Of a stretch of 64,000 nucleotides of DNA, positions 13,561 through 64,000 are shown one piece after another. The notes beneath the pieces are model-generated. The model did no database searches. It was not told the DNA's origin and was given only the letters and a program-made list of their open reading frames with translations. The position numbers and the translations under genes are program-made. The stretch is from an uncultured Bacteroidota bacterium. Lineage in GTDB: Bacteria > Bacteroidota > Bacteroidia > B-17B0 > Aurantibacillaceae. The stretch lies in the NCBI GenBank assembly GCA_937873155.1, contig CALMVZ010000008.1, positions 1-64,000 of the forward strand. Direction: 5' to 3'. Each line of letters begins with the position of its first letter. The stretch's first letter is position 1.

Positions 13561-14325
13561 ATGAACTTCTTCACCGGATTTTTCAAAGGATTTGGTAATT
13601 GCTTCAAAGCATTCGAATTAATTTTCAATAAAGGCCTTTGGCCTTTTTTACTTTATCCTCTGGCCATCTGGTTAATTACATGGGTGCTGACCTTATTTGG
13701 GATCACATTACTTGCAACGTATCTCACAGGTTTAATTAAAGACCTTTTTCACATTGAGGACAGTTCAGGTTTTTTCGGAGCTATCATCGCCATCTTGATC
13801 AAGATCTCTTTGTTCTTAATATCAGGAACGTTCTCGCGTTATATTTTATTGATCGTGCTTTCTCCTTTGTTTGCTTTGTTATCTGAGAAAGCGGAGGAGA
13901 ATTTAACAGGTGCTAATTTCCCTTTTTCGTTCAGGCAATTAAGTAAAGATATTTTAAGGGGAATATTGATCACACTCCGGAATCTCGGTATAGAATTCGG
14001 AATCATAATTATCTGTACGATCCTTTCTTTTTTCTTCGCTCCCGTTGCAATTATAACGATTCCATTTCTTTTATTCGTTTCCTGGTACTTCACCGGTTTT
14101 ACAATGTTGGATTATAGTGCAGAGCGCCACAAATTAAAAGCAGGCGAGAGTACAGATCTTATCCGGCTAAATAAAGGTTACGCTTGTGGTATTGGCTGCG
14201 TGTATTGGTTATTTATGATCCTTCCTTTTTTTATTGGTGATATCATTGGCGTCATGTTCGGGCCGGCTCTCGCTGTTGTTGGGGCAACCATTTCTTTCTT
14301 GGAGATTAAAAACATTAAAGCTTAA
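13561..14325 (+). CDS. EI24/CysZ-like integral membrane protein
   Basis: 254 residues with about six hydrophobic helices. It begins FFKGFGNCFKAFELIFNKGLW and has LPFFIGDIIGVMFGPALAVVGA near the end, as in the EI24 (CysZ) family. Escherichia coli CysZ carries sulfate; the substrate of the Bacteroidota members is not established and no sulfate assimilation genes are adjacent. Its last 11 bases overlap the convergent SpoIIE phosphatase gene. Confidence 0.8.
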   Translation: MNFFTGFFKGFGNCFKAFELIFNKGLWPFLLYPLAIWLITWVLTLFGITLLATYLTGLIKDLFHIEDSSGFFGAIIAILIKISLFLISGTFSRYILLIVLSPLFALLSEKAEENLTGANFPFSFRQLSKDILRGILITLRNLGIEFGIIIICTILSFFFAPVAIITIPFLLFVSWYFTGFTMLDYSAERHKLKAGESTDLIRLNKGYACGIGCVYWLFMILPFFIGDIIGVMFGPALAVVGATISFLEIKNIKA

Positions 14326-16648
14326 TCCCTATCAGCAACACATCATCCACCTGGTCTAAGTTCCCCTTCCAGTCAGTGAAAGTCGTTTCTAAAACCATTC
14401 TTTGTGCGTTTAGATTCAAACCTGAGTTTTGTTTCAGTGTTTCGCACAGACGACGATATTTGAATTTTTTACCATCAGTTCCTCCGAATTGATCTACATA
14501 ACCATCGGTACCTAAATACAGAATATCGCCTTTTTTGTAATTTACAGAATGTAATGCGAATGAATTCATCCGCTCGCCTTGTCCAACCGGCATTTTATCA
14601 TAAGGTAATTCTGATAATTCTCCGTTACTGATAATGATCGGACTTGTATTTGCGGCAGAGTAGGTGATCTTATCTCCGTCGAAACAAACTAATACGCCAT
14701 CGAAACCATCTTTCTGTTCCTCGCGGGAGATACTTTCTATTAAACGCTTTCTTACGTAATTTAAAACTTCGTGCGGTTCAAGAATTCTTTTTTCGTTGAT
14801 AGCCTCATTCAAAAAAGAGATATTCAGCAAACTCATAAATGCTCCCGGGACCCCATGTCCTGTGCTATCACACACAGCTAAATAAAATAGTTCGGAGTTT
14901 TTAGTTCGTAGTTCGGAGATGGCAGATTCTTTCGCTTTTTCACTCCGAACTCCGAACTCTGAACTACGAACTGAAGTTGCCCAATAAAAATCACCGCTCA
15001 CAATATCTTTTGGTTTGAATAAAATGAAATTATCTTTTAAATGTTTATTCAGGAAATCAGTATGCGCTAATAATGTATATTGAATACGTTTAGCATAATT
15101 GATGGAGTCGAGGATCTCTTTTTGTTTTTCTTCAATGATGTGTTTTTGCTGCGTGATCTCTTTATTAGCTTGCTGTTTATTTTTGAATGCCCTGAAAGAA
15201 ATAAATGCGATCACTAACATCAGTAAAAATCCAAATACACCGCCATAAGTGAATAAACGCTGCTTTGCTATCTCTGCATCATGTTTACTTTGTTCTACTA
15301 AACGGATATTAGCTTGCGAAACACTGTCAGCCGCCGCTTTTTTATCGTACTCGGATTTAAATTGTTGACGAAGGATAGCCTTTTTATTTTCAACGCGCGA
15401 AAGACTATCACGCATTTTTACATGAAGCTCAAACATTTCAAGAGCATCATTGGTCCGGTTGTTACTCCTATAGATCTTGTACAAAGTATATGCAGGATGT
15501 TTAATGAGGTAAGGATAACCTAATTCATTTCCTAATTGTAAGGCTTTTTTTGCATTTTCTTCAGCCTTCGCTAAATTTTTACTGGCTAAATAAATGTCAG
15601 CTACTAATTCGTAAGCTTCAGATAATGAACTTTTGCTTTGAATAGAACTTAAAAGGTCGACCGCCCGGTTCGCATTGAACAAAGCGCTGTCGTGAGATCC
15701 CTTCAAAGAGTAAGCTGAAGAAATAAATATATGGGCTGCAGCCATTCCGCCTTTATCATCAATATTCTCTCTTAACTTTTTAGAATCGTAATAATAAACA
15801 AGGGCTTTATCAGGATCACCTTTCTTAAAATAGATCTGCCCGATATTAGTCAATGAAAGAGCGCAGGATTGTTTTTCGCCTACGATCTCAAATAAGATCT
15901 TGGCTTTATTAAAATTTTGTAAAGCTTTCTCATAATCGCCTTCGCTTTCGTAAATATGTCCAAGGTTATTTAACGTTGCCGCCTGATGACGTTTCTCTCC
16001 CCTTGTTTCAAATATTTTCAGCGCTTTTGAAAAGCAATTTACAGCTGCGGCAAGATCTCCCTGGTTCCTGTAAATGGAACCTAAATTCAGATAAGTGATC
16101 CCGACGCCTGTCTTATCATTGTTCTTTTCTTTTACGTTCAGGGATTTGATATGATATTCTATCGACTTATTAGCATCACCTTGCTTCTTATAAATATCTG
16201 CAAGATTGTTGAGGGAAGCAGATATGCCTGTAAGATCGTTTAATTTCGTTTGTACTTTCAAAGCCTCTTCGTAGTATTTAAGCGCTCCGCTCAGATCTCC
16301 TTTCAGGTTGGCCATTTCAAAACCAATATTACTAAGAGCGTAAGACTTATACATTAAGAATACATTTTCATTTCCGCCTTTTTCAGCGAGTTTAAGTCCA
16401 AGAACATTGTAACGTGTCCAAAGATGTTCATCCCCTAACGAATTCGCTAAATTCATAACGCATCTCACTCTTATTGAGTCATGATTTGCCCTGTGATACA
16501 TTGGTAAAATTGAGTCGAGAATATACTTATCCTGGATGGAAAATTCTTTTGGATCAAGACTATCAAGCAAATACCATTCCTTCCCTTTTTTCTGAGCAGA
16601 AATGAAGGTGCTTAAAAGAACGAGGAATATAAAAATGCTCTTTTTCAA
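14315..16648 (-). CDS. TPR-containing SpoIIE-family serine phosphatase
   Basis: About 777 residues from the TTG at 16648, which gives the signal-like MKKSIFIFLVLLSTFISA; the frame reaches another TTG at 16678. Layout: periplasmic TPRs (about 60-400), a coiled coil, one membrane helix (GVFGFLLMLVIAFISF), a second coiled coil (QQANKEITQQKHIIEEKQ), then a cytoplasmic PP2C/SpoIIE domain (KPKDIVSGDFYWA, VCDSTGHGVPGAFMS, LYLGTDGYVDQFGG). It should dephosphorylate a STAS protein, possibly the nearby one, in response to an external signal. Between FYWA and FYLAVCD, 28 codons (14889-14972) are formed by a heptamer-palindrome element that the family does not normally have. Confidence 0.93.
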   Translation of the reverse strand: MKKSIFIFLVLLSTFISAQKKGKEWYLLDSLDPKEFSIQDKYILDSILPMYHRANHDSIRVRCVMNLANSLGDEHLWTRYNVLGLKLAEKGGNENVFLMYKSYALSNIGFEMANLKGDLSGALKYYEEALKVQTKLNDLTGISASLNNLADIYKKQGDANKSIEYHIKSLNVKEKNNDKTGVGITYLNLGSIYRNQGDLAAAVNCFSKALKIFETRGEKRHQAATLNNLGHIYESEGDYEKALQNFNKAKILFEIVGEKQSCALSLTNIGQIYFKKGDPDKALVYYYDSKKLRENIDDKGGMAAAHIFISSAYSLKGSHDSALFNANRAVDLLSSIQSKSSLSEAYELVADIYLASKNLAKAEENAKKALQLGNELGYPYLIKHPAYTLYKIYRSNNRTNDALEMFELHVKMRDSLSRVENKKAILRQQFKSEYDKKAAADSVSQANIRLVEQSKHDAEIAKQRLFTYGGVFGFLLMLVIAFISFRAFKNKQQANKEITQQKHIIEEKQKEILDSINYAKRIQYTLLAHTDFLNKHLKDNFILFKPKDIVSGDFYWATSVRSSEFGVRSEKAKESAISELRTKNSELFYLAVCDSTGHGVPGAFMSLLNISFLNEAINEKRILEPHEVLNYVRKRLIESISREEQKDGFDGVLVCFDGDKITYSAANTSPIIISNGELSELPYDKMPVGQGERMNSFALHSVNYKKGDILYLGTDGYVDQFGGTDGKKFKYRRLCETLKQNSGLNLNAQRMVLETTFTDWKGNLDQVDDVLLIGIKL
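14889..14972. repeat. Heptamer palindrome, copy A (in frame in the SpoIIE phosphatase gene)
   Basis: The left arm (14889-14918) is AG followed by TTCGGAG, TTTTTAG, TTCGTAG, TTCGGAG. The right arm (14943-14972) is its inverted counterpart: on the other strand AG then TTCGTAG, TTCAGAG, TTCGGAG, TTCGGAG. The arms match at 25 of 30 positions around a 24-base centre. Total 84 bases, exactly 28 codons. It is translated as SVRSSEFGVRSE ... SELRTKNSEL. Confidence 0.9.
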
Positions 16649-16743
16649 TCGGAGAGTAAATATAAGAAAAAGGGACAAAGGAGACTTAAGGGGACAAAAG
16701 AGATTTAAGGGATAATTGTAACTTTAAACAATGTTTGAAAAAC

Positions 16744-18271: not shown

Positions 18272-19348
18272 TTATAGGCTATATCTTGCCTCAGGAACCG
18301 CAGATAATTCGCAAAAGTCTTGTTTCAGGAATTTGTAGTAACCTGTAATGGCGATCATGGCGGCGTTATCTGTACAGAACTCGAAAGAAGGAATGAAAAC
18401 ATCCCATTTTTGTTTAATTCCGGTCTCTTTCAGTTGTTTTCTTAATTCGCTGTTAGCAGAAACTCCTCCTGCAATAGCAATGTGTTTTATGTTATGGATT
18501 TTAGAGGCTTCAATAACATTCTGTAAAAGAATATTTATTAAATGATGCTGATACGAAGCGCAAATGTCATTCAGATTCTTTTCAATGAATTTCGGATCTT
18601 CCTTCGTTCCGTTCTGAATAAAATAAAGAAATGCAGTCTTTATACCACTGAAACTATAATCAAGTCCCGGCACTTTTGACTTAGGGAATTGGAATTTTTT
18701 AGGATCACCCGATTGCGCATGTTTATCAATTAAAGGTCCGCCCGGATAAGGCAAGCCCAAAATTTTAGCAGCTTTATCAAAGGCTTCCCCCACAGCGTCA
18801 TCTTGTGTTTGTCCGATCAATTCAAAACTCAAATGATCGTTTACTTTTACGATTTGGGTGTGTCCGCCGCTAACAGTTAAACACAGGAATGGAAAATTGG
18901 GAGTTCGGATTTCGGAGTTCGTTGACCGTGTGCCTGATTTTTCCTCAGCCAACTCCGAACTCCGAACTCCGAACTGAATAAAATGCGCGAGGATGTGCGC
19001 ATGCATATGGTTCACTTCTATAAGCGGAATACTTAATGCAAGAGCTAAAGATTTGGCAAAACTGGTTCCTACCAGTAAGCTTCCCATTAAACCTGGCCCA
19101 CGTGTAAAAGCTATAGCTGAAATTTGTGATAAATTAACACCCGCTTTTTCCAATGCAGCATGTGCGGTTGGAACAATGTTTTTCTGATGGTCTCTGCTTG
19201 CTAATTCAGGAATTACCCCTCCGTATTGCTCATGAATGGTTTGATTCGCTGTAATATTTGCAAGCAGAACCTCATTCTCAAGAATAGCACATGAAGTATC
19301 GTCGCAGCTCGATTCTATTGCGAGGATGTAAACTTTTTCACTCTTCAT
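18272..19348 (-). CDS. tsaD: tRNA N6-threonylcarbamoyladenosine transferase TsaD
   Basis: 358 residues. An ASKHA-fold protein starting ILAIESSCDDTSCA, with metal ligands in NHMHAHILAH (about 112-121), SGGHTQI and the C-terminal CTDNAAMIA. TsaD transfers threonylcarbamoyl to A37 of ANN-decoding tRNAs and is nearly always essential. Between HILAHFI and FPFLCLTVSGGH, about 26 extra residues (about 125-150) are encoded by a heptamer palindrome; most homologs have a much shorter loop there. It is transcribed divergently from tamB. Confidence 0.96.
   Translation of the reverse strand: MKSEKVYILAIESSCDDTSCAILENEVLLANITANQTIHEQYGGVIPELASRDHQKNIVPTAHAALEKAGVNLSQISAIAFTRGPGLMGSLLVGTSFAKSLALALSIPLIEVNHMHAHILAHFIQFGVRSSELAEEKSGTRSTNSEIRTPNFPFLCLTVSGGHTQIVKVNDHLSFELIGQTQDDAVGEAFDKAAKILGLPYPGGPLIDKHAQSGDPKKFQFPKSKVPGLDYSFSGIKTAFLYFIQNGTKEDPKFIEKNLNDICASYQHHLINILLQNVIEASKIHNIKHIAIAGGVSANSELRKQLKETGIKQKWDVFIPSFEFCTDNAAMIAITGYYKFLKQDFCELSAVPEARYSL
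18897..18975. repeat. Heptamer palindrome, copy B (in frame in tsaD)
   Basis: The left arm is TTGGGAG, TTCGGAT, TTCGGAG, TTCG (18897-18921). The right arm (18949-18975), on the other strand, reads AG then three TTCGGAG units and TTGG. The 27-base centre is unrelated to that of copy A. It is translated as FGVRSSELAEEK ... NSEIRTPN, the same reading register as copy A. Confidence 0.88.
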
Positions 19349-44126: not shown

Positions 44127-45203
44127 TTACGGTCTCATAACTTTGAAAGCTACTGAATTTACAGCAGTTTTACTTACACCGTTCACGAAAAAGTGTTTCA
44201 GCATGGCTTGGGCTTCCGGTAATTCGAATACTTCTTTTAGATTTCTTAATTTACCAATGGGAATTTCATTCTTTAAACATTGATCGTAAAGATCATTGAA
44301 ATTCATTTTTTCAACTTCAATATTTATTAATTCAAATAATTCTTCACGGTTCTTCACCCGGTTTTGGTTAGAACTGAATTTTTCATCAATGAGTAATTCT
44401 TTCAGGTCCAATAATTCACACAACGCTTTAAATTGTTTATCGCTGCCGATAGCAAATGTTACGGTGTGATAATCTTTGGTAGAGAATAATTCCCCATAAG
44501 GAGCAATATTGGGATGTAAAGAACCGATCGCTTCAGGAAGATGTCCGCCAATTAACCAATTCGTCGCTTGATTTACTAATGAAGCAACAGCACTATCAAA
44601 TAATGAGACAGAAACATGACAACCTTTTTTAGATCTTTCCCGTTCCAACAAAGCAATCAGTATCGCTTCTTTTAATTGGTGTCCAGCTAAAAGATCGATT
44701 AAAGCTACCGGCATTTTCACTGGTTTTGAATCCGGTTCACCGTTGATCAACATAAAACCTGCTTCAGCTTGTAAGATCAGATCGTAAGCGGTACGGGTGC
44801 TTTCATTTCCGAAACCATTTATAGAAGCGTAGATGAGTTGGGAGTTGAGAGTTCGGAGTTCGGAGTACGAGACTTTGAGTTTTAAATCATCACCTTTTTT
44901 GAAATTAGTAATGAGAATATCTGCTTCTTTTATTAGCGTATAGAATTTCTGAAGATCGTTTTCCTGAGTGATATCTAAAAACAAAATTTCTTTTCCTGTG
45001 TTCACACTCCAGTAATAAGCACTTTCTTTATCTGAAGCATTTTCTTTCTCGCATTTCCAGCTGCGAGTAACATCTCCGCCGGTTTTTGGATTTTCAATTT
45101 TAATGACCTTTGCACCTAATTCAGAAAAAAATACTCCAACTGATGGTCCGGCTAAAACACCTGCCAATTCAATTACTTTTAAGTCGGAGAAAAATTGTTT
45201 CAT
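44127..45203 (-). CDS. CaiB/BaiF family CoA transferase
   Basis: 358 residues, slightly shorter than usual. It begins LKVIELAGVLAGPSVGVFFSEL, followed by GAKVIKIENP, and has YASINGFG and a catalytic Asp in AYDLILQAEAGFM. Members move CoA between carboxylic acids. Residues about 112-122 (YSELRTLNSQL), just before IYASINGFG, are encoded by a heptamer array (44836-44865) where relatives have unrelated residues of the same length. Substrate unknown; no CoA-linked genes adjoin. Confidence 0.92.
   Translation of the reverse strand: MKQFFSDLKVIELAGVLAGPSVGVFFSELGAKVIKIENPKTGGDVTRSWKCEKENASDKESAYYWSVNTGKEILFLDITQENDLQKFYTLIKEADILITNFKKGDDLKLKVSYSELRTLNSQLIYASINGFGNESTRTAYDLILQAEAGFMLINGEPDSKPVKMPVALIDLLAGHQLKEAILIALLERERSKKGCHVSVSLFDSAVASLVNQATNWLIGGHLPEAIGSLHPNIAPYGELFSTKDYHTVTFAIGSDKQFKALCELLDLKELLIDEKFSSNQNRVKNREELFELINIEVEKMNFNDLYDQCLKNEIPIGKLRNLKEVFELPEAQAMLKHFFVNGVSKTAVNSVAFKVMRP
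44836..44865. repeat. Heptamer array, copy C (single arm inside the CoA-transferase gene)
   Basis: AG followed by TTGGGAG, TTGAGAG, TTCGGAG, TTCGGAG: one complete four-heptamer arm with no inverted partner nearby. On the coding strand it reads SELRTLNSQL, in the same register as the second arms of copies A and B (SELRT-x-NS, SEIRTPN). Confidence 0.8.
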
Positions 45204-52500: not shown

Positions 52501-53136
52501 CTATTTTTTTGAGAATTTAGCTTTAGCAAATGAAATAATGATAGGTAAAACCGATAGGCCGATGATACCTAAACAAACTAAATCGATATGTTTGCGAATG
52601 AATTCTACTTCTCCTAAAAGATACCCGGCTGTCAATAAACTACCGATCCATAAAGCACCGCCAAGAATATCGAACACTAAATATTTTTTATAACTCATTT
52701 CACTTACACCTGCTGCAAAAGGAGCAAAGGTGCGGACAAACGGAACGAAACGCGCCATGATGATAGCTTTGGTACCGTGCTTCTCAAAAAACGCATGAGC
52801 TGCATCTAAATGTTTTTGTTTTACGATAGGGCTGCCTTTAAATTTTAGATGAAAAACTTTTAATCCTATGGTTCTTCCTATCCAATAATTGCAATTATCG
52901 CCAACTACAGCAGCAATAAATAACAAGAAAAGCAAATAAGCCATGTTCAGATGTCCTGAGCGTGCAAACAGACCTGCCATGAATAATAGTGAATCGCCGG
53001 GTAAGAAAGGCATTGCTACAAGGCCGGTTTCAACAAAAATGATCATGAAAAGAATGACGTAAATAGTAGTGCCGTAATTAGCAAAGATCCATTCAAGGTC
53101 AAGATGAGGGAAAATGTGATTAAATAATTCAACCAT
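52501..53136 (-). CDS. DedA-family membrane protein
   Basis: 211 residues with four or five membrane segments. The DedA/SNARE-assoc signature is visible as FVETGLVAMPFLPGDSLLF, DNCNYWIGRTIG and FARFVPFVRTFAPFAAGVSE. DedA proteins recycle lipid carriers and phospholipids (undecaprenyl phosphate or phosphatidylethanolamine flipping) and affect membrane homeostasis. Which lipid applies here is unknown. Its start lies three bases from a heptamer palindrome that fills the gap to the rhodanese gene. Confidence 0.93.
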   Translation of the reverse strand: MVELFNHIFPHLDLEWIFANYGTTIYVILFMIIFVETGLVAMPFLPGDSLLFMAGLFARSGHLNMAYLLFLLFIAAVVGDNCNYWIGRTIGLKVFHLKFKGSPIVKQKHLDAAHAFFEKHGTKAIIMARFVPFVRTFAPFAAGVSEMSYKKYLVFDILGGALWIGSLLTAGYLLGEVEFIRKHIDLVCLGIIGLSVLPIIISFAKAKFSKK

Positions 53137-53139
53137 TTC

Positions 53140-53233
53140 AGTTCGTAGTTTTTAGTTCGTAGTTCGTAGATATTTTGGCTCGTTGTTGCTGTAAATTTAA
53201 ATTCTACGAACTACCAACTACGAACTCCCAACT
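53140..53233. repeat. Heptamer palindrome, copy D (intergenic)
   Basis: Left arm (53140-53169): AG, TTCGTAG, TTTTTAG, TTCGTAG, TTCGTAG. Right arm (53204-53233), on the other strand: AG, TTGGGAG, TTCGTAG, TTGGTAG, TTCGTAG. The centre is 34 bases of AT-rich DNA unrelated to the other copies. It occupies almost the entire spacer between the rhodanese stop and the DedA start. The total of 94 bases is not a multiple of three, and most heptamers carry TAG, unlike the coding copies. Confidence 0.92.
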
Positions 53234-53234
53234 T

Positions 53235-53537
53235 TTATAGTCCTACGTCCTCTATATAAGCGAGAATTCCTCCTTTAAGATTATACAAATTCTTATAGCC
53301 CATTTGGGTTTCGAGGGCTTGTATAACTGCAGCGCTGCGTTTGCCGCTTCTGCAATGTATGATAACCTGCTTGTCCTTCGAGATCTTATCCGCGTTATCC
53401 ATTACATCGCCCATAGGGATCAATTCCCCTTTAAGGTTCATGTCGTCAAACTCATGCGGTTCGCGAACGTCAATTAACTGAAAATCGACTTTTTTGTCGA
53501 TCAGTTCTTTCAATTCTTTGGCTGTTATCTCAAGCAT
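53235..53537 (-). CDS. Single-domain rhodanese-like protein
   Basis: 100 residues. One rhodanese domain with LIDVREPHEF and the active-site Cys62 in IIHCRSGKRSAAV, so sulfur transfer is possible. Small rhodaneses of this type (GlpE/PspE-like) carry sulfane sulfur for cofactor or tRNA thiolation. The stop is one base from the heptamer palindrome. It sits 30 bases downstream of the phosphosulfolactate synthase gene and may be co-transcribed with it. Confidence 0.94.
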   Translation of the reverse strand: MLEITAKELKELIDKKVDFQLIDVREPHEFDDMNLKGELIPMGDVMDNADKISKDKQVIIHCRSGKRSAAVIQALETQMGYKNLYNLKGGILAYIEDVGL

Positions 53538-53567
53538 GTTCTTTTATTAAAATATGAAAGTACAAAT

Positions 53568-54353
53568 TTAAGTGCTTTGTTTCATATTATCGGGTAAAAA
53601 TGTGAAAAAAGTGTCGCCTCTGAGCCCTAATCTCAGGGTTTCTAAAGGAATAACATCATCCACACCTATATTCCCAACGTTAACATTACTGCCAAAAAGC
53701 TTCAGGAAGTAAACTTGCTGCGGTTTTTGAGGGGTTTCCCAGATGATATTTTCGAGTTTTATTTTGTTAACGATACGGTTTATCAAAAGGGTATGGGCAC
53801 TTCCGTTCTTATGGAAAATACCAACATTTCCGCTTTCACGGGCCTCAGCAATTACCTGGCTGGCACCGGCATCCAATTCGGCCTGCATCATTTTTATCCA
53901 GCGGGCAGGGTGAATGATGACACCTTCTTCTTTAGAACCTACTTCCGATAATACTGTAAAGTTCTTCGCAAGTGTAGAAATGAATTCACATTTTTTATCA
54001 TGATCAATATTGATACTTCCGTCAGAAACTTCAGCAGAATCAATACCTAAAGAAGAAATGAATTTAAGATAATAATCAAATTTATTACGGATAACGAATG
54101 CTTCAAATAAAGTTCCGCCCAAATAAACTTTGATATTGTTCTTTTGGTAAAGTTTTATCTTCTCTTTAACATTCTTCGAAATAACCGAAGTCCCGAAACC
54201 TAATTTCACATAATCTATATAATCGGCACCCGTTTCCATCATATCTTCCGCCTGGCGCAAACTAATGCCTTTATCCATTACCATGGTAAGGCCTGCTTTA
54301 CGGGGTTTTACAGTACGGTCGGGTAAAAATGGTAGGTCTACAGTGTAAGCCAT
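53568..54353 (-). CDS. comA: Phosphosulfolactate synthase (ComA-like)
   Basis: 261 residues, the full length of the ComA family. Recognisable segments are RKAGLTMVMDKGISLRQAED, DYVKLGFGTS, IKVYLGGTLFE, EVSDGSINI, VLSEVGSKEEG and VIAEARESGNVGI. ComA adds sulfite to PEP, giving (2R)-phospho-3-sulfolactate, a coenzyme M intermediate in methanogens. In bacteria the same reaction may feed sulfolactate or cysteate, the latter a head group precursor of Bacteroidota sulfonolipids; that link is inference. The name is unrelated to competence ComA. It begins one base after the TPR gene. Confidence 0.9.
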   Translation of the reverse strand: MAYTVDLPFLPDRTVKPRKAGLTMVMDKGISLRQAEDMMETGADYIDYVKLGFGTSVISKNVKEKIKLYQKNNIKVYLGGTLFEAFVIRNKFDYYLKFISSLGIDSAEVSDGSINIDHDKKCEFISTLAKNFTVLSEVGSKEEGVIIHPARWIKMMQAELDAGASQVIAEARESGNVGIFHKNGSAHTLLINRIVNKIKLENIIWETPQKPQQVYFLKLFGSNVNVGNIGVDDVIPLETLRLGLRGDTFFTFLPDNMKQST

Positions 54354-63719: not shown

Positions 63720-64000
63720 ATCCCGCAGGGATTCAATATCGGTAAAACGATGTATTCATACTCTGCTTTCTATCCCGTAGGCATTGAACAGTGGAATCCC
63801 TACGGGATTCTGGATTTTTTTTGAGTAGGTATTACCGATATTGAATCCCTAAGGGATTCTGGCTGCTTTTTTGTTCGTATTTACAGATATTTAATGCCTA
63901 AGAGATTCTTGTACACCAACGCAGTTATTTAATGCCAACATTGAATCCCTATGGGATTCTTGACCCGCATTTTGATAGTATTACCGATATTGAATCCCTA
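63720..64000. repeat. Array of GAATCCC..GGGATTC palindromic repeats
   Basis: Seven or so copies of a unit with core GAATCCCTACGGGATTC, preceded by TTACCGATATT when complete. Copies are at 63720-63744 and 63771-63790 (minus orientation), and at 63791-63813, 63831-63862, 63880-63911 (degenerate), 63924-63962 and 63980-64000 (cut by the window edge; plus orientation). Unit spacing is roughly 40-60 bases. No open frame occurs. Confidence 0.85.

Follow-up and report, generated by a model that had tools for sequence, protein, structure and literature searches.

The element at 53140-53233 of the DNA analysed here (a stretch of 64,000 nt, hereafter the window) is a copy of a small repeat dispersed in the genome. 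The repeat has a unit of 30 nt, made up of exactly four heptamers and AG, and occurs as a single arm or as a convergent pair. We consider it fairly probable that its copies arise by a process in which some host DNA is replaced and that they survive where they are harmless, the copy at 53140-53233 most likely having no function.

An inverted pair of heptamer arms between the rhodanese and DedA genes

The element is an inverted pair of heptamer arms with a total length of 94 nt (94 mod 3 = 1) (Table 1). The inverted-repeat match 53140-53170 / 53203-53233 is 84% complementary with 32 nt between its halves. The element takes up 94 nt of the 98-nt rhodanese-DedA spacer, with 1 nt to spare at the rhodanese stop and 3 nt at the DedA start. 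Among its eight heptamers, five are TTCGTAG and none is TTCGGAG (5/8 and 0/8), the others being TTTTTAG, TTGGGAG and TTGGTAG. The first-pass annotation was thus right in describing 94 bases, not a multiple of three, made mostly of TTCGTAG. Its remark that this heptamer reads TAG on one strand holds for each arm, but not for the element: the left arm gives TAG when read on the plus strand, the right arm when read on the minus (mRNA) strand, and each strand thus carries one stop-bearing arm only. Within the window, AGTTCGKAG has 17 exact matches against a shuffle mean of 0.48, which places the heptamer element beyond chance.

Table 1 Features of the rhodanese-DedA copy and further copies of the repeat in the window
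Feature	Position	Strand	Remark
Left arm, 4 heptamers + AG: AGTTCGTAGTTTTTAGTTCGTAGTTCGTAG	53140..53169	+	outer end 3 nt from DedA start
Loop, 34 nt	53170..53203	.	no likeness to loops of other copies
Right arm (mRNA sense): AGTTGGGAGTTCGTAGTTGGTAGTTCGTAG	53204..53233	-	outer end 1 nt from rhodanese stop
Rhodanese-domain gene, upstream in mRNA	53235..53537	-	PF00581
DedA-type (VTT domain) membrane protein gene, downstream	52501..53136	-	PF09335
84-nt pair, in frame within TPR-SpoIIE phosphatase gene (14315-16678, -)	14889..14972	.	site empty in G002, G007
81-nt pair, in frame within tsaD (18272-19348, -)	18895..18975	.	linker of 1-2 residues in solved TsaD
Single 30-nt arm within CoA-transferase III gene (44127-45203, -)	44836..44865	+	length-neutral vs relatives without arm

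A 49-nt tandem repeat with GAATCCCTAAGGGATTC palindromes was also observed at the end of the window (63794-64000).

The repeat unit is a 30-nt arm

A search with the pattern AGTTNNKAGTTNNNAGTTCGKAGTTCGKAG, allowing up to 3 mismatches, found 71 arms genome-wide and none with the reversed pattern. Scanning 47 stretches (436 kb) with a weight matrix gave 71 arms at a score of at least 10 and 0 in reversed sequence; where stretches overlapped, L059 or L060/L302 were dropped. The logo of the 62 strong arms (9 of the 71, with scores below 30, were left out of the logo and distance tables, and three weak arms, with scores below 20, out of the heptamer tables) has sharp ends, with about zero information beyond positions 1-30 except for A31 in 49/62. 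These sharp ends at 30 nt indicate that the unit is four heptamers plus AG and no open-ended microsatellite. The second heptamer of the arm differs from the other three and is looser. A loose count of units in the 62 arms gave four in 33, five in 23 and six in 6, the counts of five and six arising because the counting rule takes the AGA(T) tail as a unit. Within the window, period 7 was found in 5 sub-windows, and other lags from 5 to 13 gave at most 2.

The arms fall into 31 single entries and 20 convergent pair entries; the pairing rule takes convergent pairs only, and L035, L037, L039 and L050 show further partial pairs. The loops are unrelated among pairs, likeness being limited to the arms. 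A model of two arm classes that pair as unlike ends was rejected, as BIC spoke against a two-class mixture and mixed pairs were in no significant excess (P=0.18). At two places (L049 4035-4079 and L058 6456-6500), a second small palindrome, TCCCGATAGCTATCGGGA, is nested within a heptamer arm.

Arms lie flush against gene ends

The outer end of the arm is at most 20 nt from a gene end in 33/47 intergenic arms, and often the stop codon TAG begins with a host T and is completed by the AG of the arm. Relative distances were computed for the 23 spacers in which 19 nt or more remained, with negative distances counted as 0 and that of L062 taken from coordinates; 12/23 fell below 0.1, that is, in the outermost tenth, where 2.3 were expected. 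The 9/32 spacers excluded were those of the window copy at 53140, the second copy of L039, L040, the first copy of L042, L046 and L047 (all with less than 19 nt left), L037 and L050 (two entries each) and L188 (weak).

The first-pass annotation had also stated that the element fills its spacer almost exactly. This is true of the copy studied here, but it is no special property, since a leftover of at most 8 nt was found in 5/24 element spacers and in 55/206 ordinary operon spacers (p=0.63). As the leftover length is ordinary, the filling of the spacer needs no special reason, but the flush placement does.

Stop-bearing heptamers and reading frame

According to the first-pass annotation, coding copies consist mainly of TTCGGAG and the intergenic copy of TTCGTAG, as would be produced by selection for stop-free heptamers in genes. 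Such a contrast is indeed present in the window, where TTCGGAG:TTCGTAG is 10:2 in coding copies and 0:5 in the intergenic copy, but it vanishes outside. In the 45 elements sampled from the rest of the genome (9 coding, 36 intergenic), the ratios are 6:11 and 33:54, respectively (Fisher p=1.0, element permutation p=0.59), and the full count of intergenic exact heptamers is 33:59. The absence of a bias outside the window is the very finding that the annotation had named as contrary to its view. With the window included, the element permutation gave p=0.04, driven by the window elements.

Separate tests in G007, G004 and G005 gave no significant contrast in any of the three, and the stratified analysis of four species without the window gave an odds ratio of 1.7 (p=0.22). 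Pooled with no stratification, the four species had given p=0.003. When up to 4 mismatches were allowed, the wider skeleton set, which contains chance matches (16 in the reversed control vs 90 in G000), gave p=0.022, rising to 0.61 once the window was removed. These data indicate that the heptamer contrast is mainly a small-sample effect of the window and is unsupported as a general rule.

At in-frame sense KAG positions, TAG was found in 0/6, a partly circular result, since genic calling would miss any ORF with a stop in frame. Where no stop arises, K=T was also rarer in coding than in intergenic copies (19/48 vs 117/193, heptamers of one element not being independent), so that stop avoidance is at most part of the cause. 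In the wider skeleton set without the window, the proportion of K=T was 0.28 in antisense coding and 0.58 in intergenic copies (p=0.0025). The claim that the intergenic copy is free of frame constraint is borne out by the pair lengths, which are a multiple of three in 3/17 intergenic pairs vs 3/3 in-gene pairs (Fisher p=0.018). The TAG-bearing heptamers of 53140-53233 are most likely the ordinary genome-wide mix, unfiltered, and TAG-rich junctions here are no evidence of regulation.

Predicted hairpin of the rhodanese-DedA copy

The predicted fold of 53140-53233 has a free energy of -33.6 kcal/mol (shuffle mean -14.6), and that of the mRNA strand -30.8 kcal/mol (shuffle mean -13.1), both compared with mononucleotide shuffles. 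The predicted stem is much more stable than those of the shuffles and may have a structural role. The first-pass annotation had proposed that the hairpin acts in mRNA processing or in uncoupling the rhodanese and DedA genes. As the predicted stem on the mRNA strand ends 3 nt short of the DedA AUG, it might hinder initiation or be cleaved, but the arms give no sign of having been kept complementary. Identity between the arms of one element is 22.5/30, slightly less than the 23.2/30 of shuffled partners, and the within-pair identity was equalled or surpassed in 98.9% of 10000 shuffles; with 20 pairs, this test supports a lack of positive co-variation only. Many of the arm-arm differences are G/T or C/G changes, which break pairs. 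That the arms of one pair match no better than random arms argues against a maintained hairpin.

Moreover, two relatives (G006 and G007) have an 18-nt spacer at this site without any hairpin. No Rfam match was found over 53140-53233, the only terminator-like site in 52900-53600 lies at 53484-53501, outside the element, and a G+C-rich stem followed by a T run, as in an intrinsic terminator, was not found at 53140-53233. A hairpin acting in mRNA processing therefore finds no support in these data, and we regard the proposal as a whole, with its selection for stop-free heptamers in coding copies, as very unlikely.

The same sites in related genomes

The repeat was present in 7/7 other genomes of the genus and in 1/29 other genomes of the family, the latter with 2 matches and 1 control match. 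At the rhodanese-DedA spacer, G006 and G007 have no repeat, G002 has TTTATAG-like heptamers in an arm-loop-arm plan like that of 53140-53233, a short remnant is left in G004, and G001 and G005 have other repeat spellings.

In-frame copies were found in genes for conserved proteins, namely tsaD, hemL, a menaquinone-biosynthesis gene and the CoA-transferase, GSCFA and SpoIIE genes. At seven coding sites, 22/40 non-G000 orthologs were 7-periodic (threshold 16 of 23) vs 36/4000 random segments. The TTCG-arm score was below 10 in 6/22 of the periodic orthologs, for example in hemL of G005 with four ATTCAAC units. The site in the menaquinone-biosynthesis gene was periodic in all eight genomes. The tsaD site, which was placed at its linker by alignment with solved TsaD, carries a different, non-heptamer repeat, CGTCATCCTGAGCTTGCCGAAGG, at the same codons in G001 (L206) and G002 (L201). 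Several sites are absent in G003, the assembly of which is fragmentary. In these comparisons, the in-gene sites are tolerant sites that are used repeatedly.

GCCAACT repeats occur in the cytochrome gene of G001 and G005, and GCCAACT is native there in G006. Such a match would be expected if heptamer tandem repeats arose in place by slippage with no copying between sites, and perfect AAACCCG arrays in G004 and G005 would fit as well. However, the 68 arms of G000 have one spelling, a four-unit length and a different second heptamer, and such a common spelling and length are unlike the product of independent slippage, which makes a purely local origin highly improbable.

Some further heptamer arrays were observed. 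In most of the genus, AACTAAT-type heptamers, one letter off the published TAACTGA unit, lie upstream of the ftsZ start (ftsA-ftsZ spacer, L288-L294). Tandem AAACCCG arrays, near-perfect and about eight units long, lie at L362 2126-2200 and L385 1490-1560 (G004, G005). In distant phyla (L098, L106, L112 and L126), inspection by eye showed TTCGGAG-type arms of four units that precede a convergent array in a different heptamer spelling.

Net length change and the origin of the copies

At 6/6 sites with an unfilled ortholog, the net gain in length was smaller than the element. It was 0 for 30 nt in both caiB (CoA-transferase) and hemL, +21 for 30 nt in the cytochrome gene, +6 for 30 nt in the GSCFA gene (+21 against G002), +72 for 84 nt in the SpoIIE gene and +80 for 94 nt in the rhodanese-DedA spacer. 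In addition, hemL of G002 and G005 showed +6 for a 30-nt tract. These net gains suggest that copies replace host DNA and favour copying of this kind over simple insertion, though later in-frame deletion could contribute; insertion followed by in-frame deletion could by itself give such net lengths.

The repeat might alternatively be a REPIN- or MITE-like non-autonomous mobile element, the convergent arms of which are recognised by a transposase in trans and the single arms of which are decayed halves. Its discrete ends, convergent pairs and dispersal across the genus would suit such an element, as would the other small palindromes nested in arms (L049, L058), but there is no conserved interior, the loops being unrelated, and full 30-nt single arms without a partner are common. 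An element plus a target duplication, the MITE trait, was likewise seen at none of the six sites, where the gain is below the element length, though later deletion is possible. We consider a mobile element unlikely.

For the replacing process, we infer template switching or conversion, with other heptamer arrays as the source and with the loss of some host DNA, rather than insertion with target duplication. In spacers, copies would survive flush against stop and start codons, where they would be harmless, and in genes they would survive in frame in tolerant protein loops. The copy at 53140-53233 would have taken the place of a short spacer between rhodanese and DedA; it most likely serves no function itself. 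Generic template switching leaves the fixed four-unit length and the convergent pairing unexplained, and the flush placement by stops could reflect a targeted process.

A bolder reading would assign the four-heptamer arms to a cross-phylum 'written-over' class, in which a dedicated process writes a 28-30-nt tract in a lineage-specific spelling, replaces host DNA in frame and rewrites the same sites, the four-unit rule being a property of the writer rather than of a G-quadruplex. We regard this as distinctly unlikely. If it were true, the four-unit arrays of the AGTTCGKAG type that occur in records from Omnitrophota, Nitrospirota and Deltaproteobacteria (L098, L111, L142 and L148, among the matches listed) would belong to the same class.

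Comparison with known repeats

Small dispersed repeats and STRRs are known in cyanobacteria. According to Rehm et al. (2015, PMC4692102), Xanthomonas and Nostoc carry heptamer repeats (GGGAATC and GGGGA(C/T)T, respectively) with a preference for four units, which is tied to G-quadruplexes. They are described there as G-rich, forming quadruplexes in vitro, with 2 to 26 units, and as mostly non-coding, lying at most 50 bp from a stop (sense) or start (antisense) codon and in some cases overlapping the stop codon. The repeat described here resembles them in its 7-nt units with a preference for four, in its occurrence as 31 singles and 20 convergent pairs, in being mostly non-coding, in overlapping some stop codons, and in adjoining stops in sense or starts in antisense orientation (33/47 arms at most 20 nt from a gene end). 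In contrast to those repeats, no arm here has four GGG runs (0/68), and 15/68 arms lie in genes with open frames. Four GG runs occur in 4/68 arms, and 8/68 are without any GG. Because the arms are without G-tracts, the G-quadruplex reason cannot explain the four-unit rule here.

TAACTGA heptamer repeats, found in Beggiatoaceae, Cyanobacteria and Bacteroidetes, are proposed by MacGregor (2015, PMC4679880) to be regulator binding sites just upstream of start codons. They are likewise dispersed heptamers near gene ends, patchy across phyla and in mostly intergenic sets, but, in the same text, they are direct repeats with a single inverted case and have a uniform unit. Rickettsia palindromic elements, as described in two reviews (PMC2229807, PMC10969869), also lie in frame within conserved protein genes and are apparently tolerated, as are the in-gene copies here. 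These elements form families of 105-146 bp with a conserved sequence and peptide, whereas only the arms are alike in the present repeat and its singles are 30 nt long.

The five inverted pairs in 52900-53500 all match the left arm with the right arm, and none lies within an arm, as would the palindromic half of a REPIN. REPINs are reportedly the subject of a 2011 paper by Bertels and Rainey. According to PMC3116915, each REP is an imperfect palindrome, RAYT-linked and mostly extragenic, and two short inverted repeats form one unit beside singlets, as they do here; the arms described here are direct heptamer arrays, not palindromes.

A literature search with the literal heptamer strings found no paper, and a search on heptamer, Bacteroidetes, in-frame and inverted repeats, which took in few subscription journals, listed no description of this repeat family.

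Implications of the repeat

A repeat without G-tracts that has the same four-unit rule, pairing and placement makes the quadruplex explanation of the four-unit preference directly testable. Moreover, essential proteins in this genus carry differing in-frame heptamer peptides at a single site, and these natural replicates could show the extent of protein tolerance. The most useful outcome is a non-quadruplex four-unit family with repeated rewriting of the same in-frame sites.
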